From Haloferax larsenii JCM 13917 (GTDB taxonomy: Archaea > Halobacteriota > Halobacteria > Halobacteriales > Haloferacaceae), in NCBI RefSeq assembly GCF_000336955.1, contig NZ_AOLI01000019.1, positions 339,063 to 384,811 on the forward strand: a DNA stretch of 45,749 nucleotides. The letters run 5' to 3'. Under the pieces are notes generated by a model. The model searched no databases, was not told the DNA's origin, and worked only from the letters and a program-made list of their open reading frames with translations. A program made the position numbers and the translations under genes. How positions within the stretch are numbered: position 1 is the first letter of the stretch; the number at the start of each line of letters is the position of its first letter. Of this stretch, positions 42,738-45,749 are shown one piece after another.

Positions 42738-42840
42738 TGAGTCTCGGTGGAGTGGGTCACTCGTGGAGAAAATGGTGGTGGCAGAGTTGTCACCAGATGT
42801 TGGCTTGTCGCTTCGGTGAGCGTTTCTCAGCGTGCGACAG

Positions 42841-43488
42841 CTACGATTGCTTCCTCTCTAACCAGTCGATGAGCGTGTTTCGTGCCTCTCCGGCTCGCTC
42901 TGCTTCGATGAGCTTCGAGATGTCCAAGTGGCCGCCTCTGACACGGTCTTTGACCTCCGCTACGGTCCCCGAGACGATGGCCTCGTAGTCCATCGCGGTT
43001 TGCTCGACGGGGGCGGCTGCTGGACTCCCGTTAGTCGGGACTGAAGGACGGCCAGCGTCGGCCTTTTCCTCGAACGTGGACCCAGCGGCCTGTCTGGGAG
43101 ACCGACCAGCATATGGATTCCCTTCCTGCCTCGACGGCTCTCGCCTCGGGCTTGGGCTTGGATCTGTTTGGGGTGCTTTTCCTGCGTCGGTCGCTTGCCC
43201 CGTGGTGTACCCGGATCTTCCATCTCTGGACGTGGACGCGTCTAGCGAGCGCGGCGCAGCACCGCCATCGACGGTCTGTTCCGAATCGCCCCGTGTTCGT
43301 TTCGGTGTTGGATTCGACTTCGGCGTGCTTTCGGGCTGTGTCGGACTGGTAGTGGAACCAATACTGGGTGCTCTTCCTGCGTCGGTGGCTTCTTCGGGTG
43401 CTTTCTTCGCAGCGTCGAGTTGCTCTCGAACAGCGGTCTGAATCGTCTCAGCGTCCGTTTCTTCGTCCGTCTCGATGATGATGCGCAT
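42841..43488 (-). CDS. Low-complexity protein with repeated DAG[RK]AP-type motifs, end of subtilase operon
   Basis: 215 residues, with no signal peptide or membrane helix. The N-terminus (RIIIETDEETDAETIQTAVR) is a short strand plus helix. The middle is disordered (Ser, Thr, Pro, Gly, Arg) and carries five related motifs: DAGRAPS (36-42), DGGAAPR (74-80), DAGKAPQ (101-107), YAGRSPR (126-132) and DAGRPSV (144-150). A compact helical C-terminus (AMDYEAIVSGTVAEVKDRVR, then GHLDISKLIEAERAG) ends with LIDWLERKQS. The motifs look like docking or cleavage sites, an idea without proof. It starts 12 bases after the small beta-domain gene. I do not recognise the family. Confidence 0.8.
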   Translation of the reverse strand: MRIIIETDEETDAETIQTAVREQLDAAKKAPEEATDAGRAPSIGSTTSPTQPESTPKSNPTPKRTRGDSEQTVDGGAAPRSLDASTSRDGRSGYTTGQATDAGKAPQTDPSPSPRREPSRQEGNPYAGRSPRQAAGSTFEEKADAGRPSVPTNGSPAAAPVEQTAMDYEAIVSGTVAEVKDRVRGGHLDISKLIEAERAGEARNTLIDWLERKQS

Positions 43489-43500
43489 GGCTGTGTTCCT

Positions 43501-43755
43501 CTAGTTCAGTATCGCGTATCTGGCTTCGACCTGGACGCTGTCGCCCGTGTTGTTCTGAATCGATATCCAGTACGTGATGTCGTTGCTCGATGCGCGCTCT
43601 ACCTCTACGTCCCAGTCGATTTGTGGGCCGCCTTTCTCGGGCGACGTGGGGACGACGTACCACGTGACGTGCCAGTTTTCGGGCCAGCCCCACGTGAACC
43701 AGCGTCGGCTGCTGTTTGCCGGGACGGTGCCGCGGAATTGGACTCCTGTGTTCAT
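43501..43755 (-). CDS. Stand-alone copy of the subtilase C-terminal beta-rich domain
   Basis: 84 residues with no signal peptide. By eye about three quarters of positions match the last 83 residues of the adjacent protease (TGVQFRGTVPANS, RRWFTWGWP, VVPTSP, GGPQI, VEVERA, ITYWISI, VEARYA). It has many aromatic residues and regular strands, so it is probably a small beta sandwich. It may have arisen by tandem duplication of the 3' end of the protease gene, or it may be an ancestral partner of a fused domain. Candidate roles are a protease inhibitor or regulator, or a shared binding module. It lies 60 bases after the protease stop and 12 bases before the next gene. Confidence 0.85.
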   Translation of the reverse strand: MNTGVQFRGTVPANSSRRWFTWGWPENWHVTWYVVPTSPEKGGPQIDWDVEVERASSNDITYWISIQNNTGDSVQVEARYAILN

Positions 43756-43815
43756 CTTCGTGTCTCCGTGTGTGTTCGGTCGTGTCGGCTGCTCGCGTTC
43801 GTGAGTCGGTTCATC

Positions 43816-45546
43816 TTATGTCTCCCCGAGGACGGCGTAGCGGGCCTCCACGTCCACCGACGAACCGGTCTTGTTCGTGATGCTAATCCAGTACGTGATG
43901 TTCTCGTGGGTGGCTCGTTCGACCTCGACGTTCCAGCTAATCTGGGGTCCACCGGGGTCGGGCGACGTCGGGACGACAGTCCACAAGACGTGCCACTGTG
44001 CTGGCCATCCCCACGTGAACCAGCGTCGCGTACTGTTTGCCGGGACGGTTCCGCGGAACTGGACGCCGGTCCAGTCACTGGTCTGCAACGCATTGGGGAT
44101 GAGTTCCCGGAGGTCCGGTCGGTTCCCGATTCGCTGTGAACTGGGACGACCGGGCGCGTCCTGCTGGGGCGTTCCTGTCGAGCGAAGTAGCTCACGCGCT
44201 CGCAGTGGGCTAAGTTGGGCTTGGCTGTCCCGCCGCAAGATTCCCTGTACGCAGGCCAACGCGCCGACGACGATGGGTGACGCACTCGACGTCCCGCTGA
44301 ACTGGTCAGTGTACCACTCGTTTTTGTTCGACCCGCCCTGGAGGTCGCCGTATCCGGTGGTGGTGACTTCTCGGCCCCACCCCTGCGTATCGAGTATGCT
44401 CCCGTAATTGGAGAAGCCGAGACGCGACCGGTCGGGGCCCCAGTCGTTCCCGTGAGTGCCCGACGGTGGCGCACCGGCACCGACGACAATGGCACCCGAG
44501 TCGCGGTCGCCCCGCCGGAACGGATTACTCCAGTCGGAGGGGAACCACGAGGGCCTGTTGTCGTAAATCGCGTCGTCGAGGTTCTCGTCACCGTTCCCCG
44601 CGGCTTCGACGACGATGACTCCCTTCGCGACGGCGTATCGGATGGCCGCCCAATCGTCGGGCCACCATTCGATGGCGATGTACCCGTCTTGGTCACCGCG
44701 TTGCTGGAAGTTGTTTCGCGGGCCCGGTCGGTGAATTTCGAGCAGCATGATGTCGCCGCGGTGTAACCGATTCGCGGCGAGTCGAATCGCTCGTGCCGTC
44801 GCCATCGAGAAGGCGACCGCGCTGACGTTGGCCTCGGATGCGATACCGGTGACTCCGAGTCCGTTCTGGTCGCCACCGATTTCACCGATGACGGCAGTCC
44901 CGTGGTTGTCGTACGGCGAGTTGCTGCCTCCGACAACGCCACCTTGGTTGTTCTGGTGGTCTTCGTGGCTGAAGTTCCAGCCCCATTCGAGGTCGATTAC
45001 ATCGACCCCCTGTCCTCTGCCGCCGGGGAATTGCCACGCGTAGCGGGCGTCGATACCGTCGGGTGCGGAATCGAGGTATCCCTGACGAGGTGTGAAGTCC
45101 GGCGTGTTCACCGGCGGCGACTCCATGGCTGGAGTCATGTCGTTGAGGGCCTCGACTTCGGCCTCTCCGACCGCCTCCGCTGGTTCTGCCGGTGGTTTCA
45201 CGTACGCGGCTTCGACTGCATCGAGTTCGTTCAACCGTTTGGCGACCGCTTCCATCCGGTCTTCGTCCGCGTCGACGGTGTAATACAGCGACAGGTCCGG
45301 GACGTCCATGTCCGACTCGGAAGCGACGGCTTCGACGTCGGCGCGCAAGCGCTCTTCAGTGGTTCCAAAGAGTGGTTCGATAGTCGCACCTTCGTCGTCG
45401 AGAACGTCCGACAATGGACTGAGGTCGGCGTTCGCTGCCGAAGTCAGCCCGTCGGGTCGTGCCCGTAACTCGACGTCCGACTTGGCGACCATGACTAGTT
45501 CCGGCTTTCCTCGAACCGCTTCTGCGTCTCTCGTGTTCGGATTCAT
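43816..45546 (-). CDS. S8 (subtilisin-like) serine protease with C-terminal beta-rich domain, apparently cytoplasmic
   Basis: 576 residues. There is no signal peptide or Tat motif; the N-terminus MNPNTRDAEAVRGKPELVMV is soluble. Residues 60-118 resemble an I9-type propeptide (VPDLSLYYTVDADEDRMEAV, then AKRLNELDAVEAAYVKPP). The catalytic Asp185 is in VDVIDLE, His215 in NHGTAV, oxyanion Asn318 in AAGNGD and Ser420 in SGTSSASP, so the triad is complete. Residues 494-574 are a beta-rich domain (FRGTVPANSTRRWFTWGWP, ending VEARYAVLG), repeated as a separate gene downstream. Typical haloarchaeal halolysins are secreted by Tat, which makes the missing signal notable. The ATG at 45546 has a GGAGG-type sequence about 14 bases upstream. 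It is the first gene of an apparent three-gene operon. Confidence 0.92.
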   Translation of the reverse strand: MNPNTRDAEAVRGKPELVMVAKSDVELRARPDGLTSAANADLSPLSDVLDDEGATIEPLFGTTEERLRADVEAVASESDMDVPDLSLYYTVDADEDRMEAVAKRLNELDAVEAAYVKPPAEPAEAVGEAEVEALNDMTPAMESPPVNTPDFTPRQGYLDSAPDGIDARYAWQFPGGRGQGVDVIDLEWGWNFSHEDHQNNQGGVVGGSNSPYDNHGTAVIGEIGGDQNGLGVTGIASEANVSAVAFSMATARAIRLAANRLHRGDIMLLEIHRPGPRNNFQQRGDQDGYIAIEWWPDDWAAIRYAVAKGVIVVEAAGNGDENLDDAIYDNRPSWFPSDWSNPFRRGDRDSGAIVVGAGAPPSGTHGNDWGPDRSRLGFSNYGSILDTQGWGREVTTTGYGDLQGGSNKNEWYTDQFSGTSSASPIVVGALACVQGILRRDSQAQLSPLRARELLRSTGTPQQDAPGRPSSQRIGNRPDLRELIPNALQTSDWTGVQFRGTVPANSTRRWFTWGWPAQWHVLWTVVPTSPDPGGPQISWNVEVERATHENITYWISITNKTGSSVDVEARYAVLGET

Positions 45547-45647
45547 TGCTGGGTTTCCTTCCTCCGTTTCTGTGGTGTTCCCGTTCCGTCTCCTCGGCTC
45601 GTTTCACCTCCCCTTCGCGAGGGACACCATGTTTAATATCCGTATAT

Positions 45648-45667
45648 TTGACAATAGTTGTTGTCAA
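45648..45667. promoter_or_regulatory. Inverted repeat in the divergent promoter region of the protease operon
   Basis: TTGACAA and its exact complement TTGTCAA are separated by six bases. TATA-like sequences for the minus-strand operon (GATATTAAAC around 45631-45640, or AAATATAC around 45642-45649) lie on one side; a TATA-like AATAGTAAAG (about 45680-45689) for a plus-strand gene lies on the other. A dimeric regulator bound here could control both directions. Confidence 0.5.
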
Positions 45668-45717
45668 CTAGGTGGAAGTAATAGTAAAGTAACAACTGTG
45701 TGTTGGTTTCTAGCGTG

Positions 45718-45749
45718 ATGTCGTCTGAATCGCTCGTGGAACCTCGCGT
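45718..45749 (+). CDS. Start of a divergent gene cut by the window end
   Basis: An ATG at 45718 (or GTG at 45715) opens a frame reading MSSESLVEPR that runs off the window. A TATA-like stretch about 30 bases before it supports a leaderless start. Too little is visible to identify a product. If real, it would share the control region with the protease operon. Confidence 0.4.
   Translation, partial: MSSESLVEPR

Follow-up and report, generated by a model that had tools for sequence, protein, structure and literature searches.

The described systems closest to the locus reported here include the halolysins (SptA, R4, and Nep), secreted haloarchaeal S8 proteases that, like the enzyme of this locus, join an S8 domain to an N-terminal pro-domain and a C-terminal extension of jelly-roll type. 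Deletion of the jelly-roll-like extension of SptA abolishes binding to insoluble protein substrates, and two conserved cysteines are present in the halolysin extension (PMC3158780). Trypsin and S8 peptidases are also found among the components of bacterial conflict systems built on effector-associated domains (EADs), in which the adaptor domain occurs in separate proteins (Kaur et al. 2020, PMC7159879). Finally, in the trypsin-nuclease pairs of Hachiman and AVAST, an intracellular protease lies beside a dedicated partner gene (PMC12799240), an arrangement that this locus shares.

We analyzed a 45,749-nucleotide stretch of DNA from Haloferax larsenii JCM 13917 (contig NZ_AOLI01000019.1), referred to here as the window. 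A first-pass annotation, made from the sequence alone, had described three contiguous genes on the minus strand with gaps of 60 and 12 bases, and all of these coordinates were confirmed. The first gene encodes a subtilase with the following parts.

43816..45546, minus strand: subtilase gene, 576 residues, match to Pfam Peptidase_S8 (PF00082) at E 1.1e-13
About residues 15-120 of the subtilase: N-terminal pro-domain, I9-like
About residues 150-484 of the subtilase: S8 catalytic domain
44992..44994, minus strand: codon of catalytic Asp185, invariant in 16 relatives
44902..44904, minus strand: codon of catalytic His215, invariant in 16 relatives
44287..44289, minus strand: codon of catalytic Ser420, invariant in 16 relatives
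43819..44070, minus strand: C-terminal beta-domain of TGVQ type, residues 493-576

The intact triad (D185, H215, S420) noted in the first-pass annotation was borne out, and the oxyanion residue N318 is likewise invariant among the 16 relatives. Membership in S8 follows from the PF00082 match, the invariant triad, and a subtilisin fold at Z of about 19. Residues 15-488 of the AF2 model align with unprocessed pro-subtilisins at Z 18-19, in a full-length model whose mean pLDDT of only 62.8 is too low for placing the beta-domain. The start codon is common to three species, and inspection of the sequence at this conserved start, rather than a signal predictor, revealed neither a hydrophobic nor a twin-arginine signal in any of them, in keeping with the earlier remark that the protease has no export signal. 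The subtilase cassette is probably cytoplasmic.

Over residues 11-483, the subtilase shares 53-63% identity with subtilases of Pelomonas, Roseateles, Nocardia, Nostoc, and Paenibacillus, and the beta-domain is absent from all bacterial relatives examined. Since the nearest relatives are bacterial and lack this domain, the simplest reading is that the subtilase core was probably acquired horizontally from bacteria. The full subtilase was found in 2 of 392 genomes of the order, namely, the window's own and that of Haloferax mucosum (G192). The Paenibacillus plasmid pART37 (L032 2623-6089) has four consecutive genes: one for a subtilase, one for a trypsin-like protease, a separate one resembling a pro-domain, and one related to the subtilase of the window.

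The C-terminal domain of the subtilase is duplicated as a separate small gene, as the first-pass annotation had recognized, and the two copies are 78% identical.

43501..43755, minus strand: free beta-domain gene, 84 residues, AF2 pLDDT 87.7, six strands

Neither of the window's beta-domains contains a cysteine, and the fold predicted by AF2 for the free copy is all-beta. Among solved subtilase domains, the nearest to it are the C-terminal jelly-roll domains of Tk-SP and KP-43, with Z 6.0 for KP-43 and VIA Z 7.6-7.7 for the C terminus of Tk-SP, the nearest of all, where a Z below 8 may reflect a mere common arrangement. We know of no free domain copy or partner for either Tk-SP or KP-43. Assigning the beta-domain an identity from its fold (GOLD, Tk-SP, or collagen-binding domains, Z 6-8) was not decisive, and Foldseek returned no match with E <0.001. 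Pfam, NCBIfam, and PADLOC models gave no match above threshold to the free beta-domain or to the product of the third gene. Against PHROGs, the free beta-domain (43501-43755) gave one weak match, to a phage family whose function is not annotated (phrog_36339, E 0.0013).

The third gene encodes a 215-residue protein, hereafter the partner, which had been described as mostly disordered with five short basic/Pro motifs.

42841..43488, minus strand: disordered multi-motif partner, 215 residues, with orthologues in H. mucosum (199 residues) and Haloferax mediterranei (213 residues)
43459..43488, minus strand: N-terminal strand MRIIIETDEE, signature M[EKRQ][IVL][TSI][IF]
43360..43383, minus strand: motif 1, DAGRAPSI, one residue from DAGPAPSI of the glutaminase system described below
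43246..43269, minus strand: motif 2, DGGAAPRS
43165..43188, minus strand: motif 3, DAGKAPQT
43090..43113, minus strand: motif 4, YAGRSPRQ (degenerate)
43036..43059, minus strand: motif 5, DAGRPSVP
42856..42993, minus strand: conserved C-terminal segment, Haloferax only, with 37-39 identities in 47 residues across three species

Disorder describes most of this protein, but not its last ~46 residues, which are well conserved and not disordered-looking; this C-terminal segment had no match in Pfam or PHROG. The five repeats and their spacing of 18-38 residues also stood (starts at residues 36, 74, 101, 126, and 144; spacing 38, 27, 25, and 18), but the basic/Pro label did not: the motif is D(A/G)GxAP, and position x is not consistently basic, holding E, A, P, G, or M in other species. 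The pattern [DN][AG]G.[AP][PS] fits four of the five motifs compared to 0.01 expected from composition shuffles, and a looser pattern fits all five compared to 0.07, values that are optimistic if taken alone because the pattern was chosen after viewing the sequence. Independent support comes from H. mediterranei, which has all five motifs at matching positions, and from H. mucosum, where the match is looser and motifs 1 and 4 are degenerate. A genome-wide search for DAG targets was unproductive, as the codon pattern was not enriched (32 matches versus 52 for the reversed control). The existing annotation of H. mediterranei covers just the final 50 of the 213 codons of the third gene (L030 11062-11703), as the hypothetical protein WP_004061043.1.

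Purifying selection acts on each of the three genes, with dN/dS ratios of 0.08-0.13 for the subtilase and the free beta-domain and of 0.29-0.41 for the partner. Within the partner, pN was 0.06-0.13 at the two ends, 0.19-0.40 in the motifs, and 0.38-0.51 in the linkers.

H. mucosum (L006 8001-10658) and the H. mediterranei megaplasmid pHME505 (L030 9001-11703) have the three genes in the same order, with genomic neighbors that differ among the species. The cassette is a co-inherited unit, as had been proposed, occupying differing genomic sites in all three Haloferax species; the refuting conditions set by the first-pass annotation, homologues lying mainly apart or a 215-residue protein missing wherever the protease occurs, were checked and did not refute it. 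None of the libraries searched describes the three-gene unit, which the first-pass annotation had called undescribed, and no published description of the cassette was found in the literature searched, mostly outside subscription papers and preprints. Similarity at the DNA level extends upstream of the genes and takes in a probable operator.

42814..45697, minus strand: DNA similarity with H. mediterranei (blastn), from the region upstream of the subtilase gene through all three genes
45648..45667, minus strand: inverted repeat TTGACA-N8-TGTCAA, probable operator upstream of the subtilase gene

The H. mucosum match runs from 42835 to 45666 in two main pieces, and the inner TGACA-N8-TGTCA is kept in the three Haloferax cassettes. 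Because the inner repeat is conserved in three species and the window's genome holds no second exact copy of the full one, the cassette is probably controlled by a specific factor through its own operator.

In a close relative of the window's genome (G346, flanks 93% identical), the site is empty, and everything between about 42742 and a point past the cassette is missing. Besides the cassette, the inserted stretch holds one membrane-protein gene, and its end adjoins tandem tRNA-Val genes. These tRNA-Val(GAC) genes (L039 2876-2950 and 2994-3069), together with a partial tRNA-Val-like remnant near the insertion edge (L067 6613-6672), suggest an integration hot spot. A viral origin was considered and set aside after three IMG/VR scans and two phage searches revealed no relative. 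In H. mucosum, a matrixin-like (Peptidase_M10) lipoprotein gene (L006 10896-11933) lies downstream of the cassette, at a distance of about 240 bases. The window itself ends at 45749 in a one-N scaffold join, and, since the preceding roughly 75 bases are repeated directly after it, the contigs overlap there.

To place the beta-domain and the cassette more widely, we searched subsets of genomes. In a genome of the same phylum and another family (G655), the beta-domain profile matched two adjacent genes (E 3e-22 and 2e-21) at a locus of 45% GC, unlike haloarchaea. Here the three-gene order is that of Haloferax (locus L071).

L071 6593-5274: enzyme with C-terminal beta-domain, 439 residues
L071 5264-4995: free beta-domain, 89 residues
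L071 4982-4656: partner, MKITIQIDGEE..., 108 residues, with DAGPAPSI, DCGEAPKE, and DAGKAV

This enzyme belongs to the protein-glutaminases (Gln_deamidase_2, E 4.6e-31) and aligns, together with its pro-region, to the pro-glutaminase of PDB 3a54 (E 2e-31). A Sinorhizobium relative stops where the beta-domain starts. The L071 beta-domains share 46-54% identity with those of Haloferax, and the partner contains three DAG motifs compared to 0.001 expected under a pattern fitted to that sequence. The first-pass annotation had read the locus as a protease-specific switch, and this is only partly supported: the free beta-domain and the DAG-motif partner also accompany a protein-glutaminase in the place of the subtilase. 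Since an unrelated enzyme is found with the same beta type and motif type, the motifs belong with the beta-domain. Motif type thus appears to track beta-domain type rather than enzyme, given a glutaminase form seen at one locus in one genome and beta-domain and enzyme types that co-vary in haloarchaea and are separated by L071 alone. For the same reason, that this free beta-domain and DAG partner occur with a glutaminase, the DAG motifs are unlikely to be subtilase cleavage sites. The fused and free beta-domains of L071 group together in the tree (98/98), which counters a single-event origin of the free domain from the fused one; the free copies may have arisen by either independent duplication or gene conversion, and a free copy is kept in both cases. 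Downstream of the glutaminase cassette, at a distance of about 380 bases, is a metalloprotease-like gene (L071 1930-4272) in which inspection showed two repeats resembling P-domains.

A profile search also placed a distantly related version of the beta-domain at the C terminus of trypsin-like (S1) proteases in nine further haloarchaeal genomes, again without a visible export signal. Profiles built separately from the S8 and S1 beta-domains aligned at E 5e-9 over 77 columns (hhalign), and the only matches of the S1-only profile in the window's genome were the window's two beta-domains; because of this comparison and this search, the S8/S1 homology is not circular. In seven of the nine S1 loci (five genera), a small acidic disordered protein overlaps the stop of the enzyme gene or follows within about 10 bases downstream. 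These S1 partners start with the strand M[EKRQ][IVL][TSI][IF], a signature present in 11 of 11 partners; a scan of 497 ATG-started open reading frames gave nine matches to it, eight being partners and one a nonpartner. Six of the seven S1 partners have two [AP]Pxx[FY] motifs (P 0.0004-0.003 per protein). Kinship between the S1 and TGVQ-type partners is judged from position, start signature, and motif style, as low complexity prevents a demonstration of homology by sequence. The S1 systems have no free beta-domain. In Natronococcus sp. AD-5 and a congener, whose beta-domains are divergent, we found no partner at the loci; the AD-5 protease gene (L037 4983-6562) is frameshifted, with an intact relative in L063. 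One genome (G280) was considered as an intermediate between beta-domain and enzyme types and was rejected, as its beta-domain is S1-like (34-40% versus 19-25% identity) and its partner motif count is not significant.

The reading we tentatively prefer is that these loci represent a modular archaeal cassette, in which a docking beta-domain would bring a swappable, pro-domain-bearing enzyme to a multivalent disordered partner while the free domain competes. The constant part would be the jelly-roll-like domain, fused to the enzyme and here also free, together with the disordered partner; the variable part would be the enzyme, a subtilase here and a protein-glutaminase or trypsin-like protease elsewhere. 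TGVQ-type beta-domains would dock on DAGxAP, and the GPW type of the trypsin-like enzymes would dock on [AP]Pxx[FY]. The enzyme would be synthesized in the cytoplasm, and its N-terminal pro-domain would keep it inactive until it is triggered by the partner or by another signal. The partner, being multivalent, may gather several enzyme copies, either silencing them or bringing them together for activation, and the free beta-domain would set a threshold by competing for partner motifs. Gene order, conservation, selection, beta-domain homology, the enzyme swap, motif enrichment, and the shared operator are observed directly; from the substrate binding of the SptA extension and the predicted all-beta fold of the beta-domain, we infer docking on the motifs and, beyond it, clustering, competition, and a physiological trigger and target. 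The absence of a free beta-domain from S1 systems argues against competition as a general feature. Docking itself has against it that the C-terminal segment of the Haloferax partner has no place in the scheme and that linkers and motifs evolve quickly.

A multi-site, disordered, fast-evolving partner would also fit a dedicated substrate, with the beta-domain serving as an exosite and cutting or deamidation near the motifs freeing an active fragment or signal. That the C-terminal jelly-roll-like extension of SptA helps bind protein substrates speaks for this alternative, as does the established proteolytic activation of the paired protein in trypsin-nuclease pairs (PMC12799240). We nevertheless consider it unlikely, as one motif occurs with both subtilase and glutaminase, chemistries that need not share a site preference, and as the DAG motifs are Gln-poor and offer no conserved residue at an obvious scissile position. 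At the L071 locus, the simplest alternative also meets its main difficulty, namely, ordinary turnover by an enzyme that the beta-domain merely stabilizes at high salt, with the 215-residue protein functionally unrelated. The jelly-roll-like extension does stabilize SptA, and many subtilases have a C-terminal jelly roll, but a free beta-domain and partner accompany the enzyme in different species, at different sites, and through changes of enzyme class, even into a stretch of 45% GC, and we regard turnover as highly improbable.

The compactness and patchy distribution of the unit, the empty site beside tRNA-Val genes in a close relative, the megaplasmid location in H. mediterranei, and the small, acidic, disordered partners would instead suit an intracellular toxin neutralized by its partner, maintained as a mobile unit of addiction or competition. 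Against such an antidote, the enzyme gene comes first in order, the enzymes already have pro-domains, and no role is left for the free beta-domain. PADLOC gave no match to the three window proteins or four S1 relatives, viral relatives were not found, and relatives of the cassette are flanked by housekeeping genes. We see no sign of the defense role that the first-pass annotation had raised, and the antidote reading seems distinctly improbable.

Were the modular docking reading correct, a fixed docking domain and motif protein with a swapped enzyme would provide archaea with a module for the regulated control of intracellular enzymes, of a design described so far mainly in bacteria. It would open three orphan protein groups to functional tests in Haloferax species that are genetically tractable, and the motif-domain pair may double as a salt-tolerant recruitment tag. 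The loci also suggest a route by which archaea capture subtilases and glutaminases, with the bacterial core retained and an archaeal beta-domain appended C-terminally. A broader and more doubtful extension is a general archaeal plug-in chassis, in which the beta-domain and multivalent partner would use induced proximity to control zymogen-type enzymes of unrelated chemistry and the free domains would serve as dominant-negative decoys, by analogy with death-domain-only proteins in animal cell-death pathways. Such a chassis would be an all-beta, motif-based equivalent with no component in common with known immune or death systems.

Set against the described systems, the window's subtilase differs from halolysins in having no export signal and a core nearer to bacterial subtilases, and in place of a two-cysteine extension it has a cysteine-free beta-domain that also occurs free, plus a dedicated disordered partner. 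The L071 enzyme resembles the protein-glutaminase of 3a54 in its catalytic domain and pro-region, but it has a beta-domain, a signal peptide was not seen, and a free beta-domain and DAG partner lie downstream. In contrast to the Hachiman and AVAST pairs, the locus lacks a sensor gene, and its partner protein is no nuclease. Likeness to EAD systems lies in their logic of one adaptor domain with exchangeable effectors: the beta-domain rides on S8, S1, and glutaminase enzymes and is also present alone as free copies. However, Pfam searches of the three genes and the gene content of the cassette revealed no EAD/Trypco domain, Death-like domain, NTPase, or NucA or other nuclease core, and the domain is all-beta and archaeal. 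Modular adaptor-effector logic is already known from bacterial EADs, and the cassette works like those systems rather than being a member of them.
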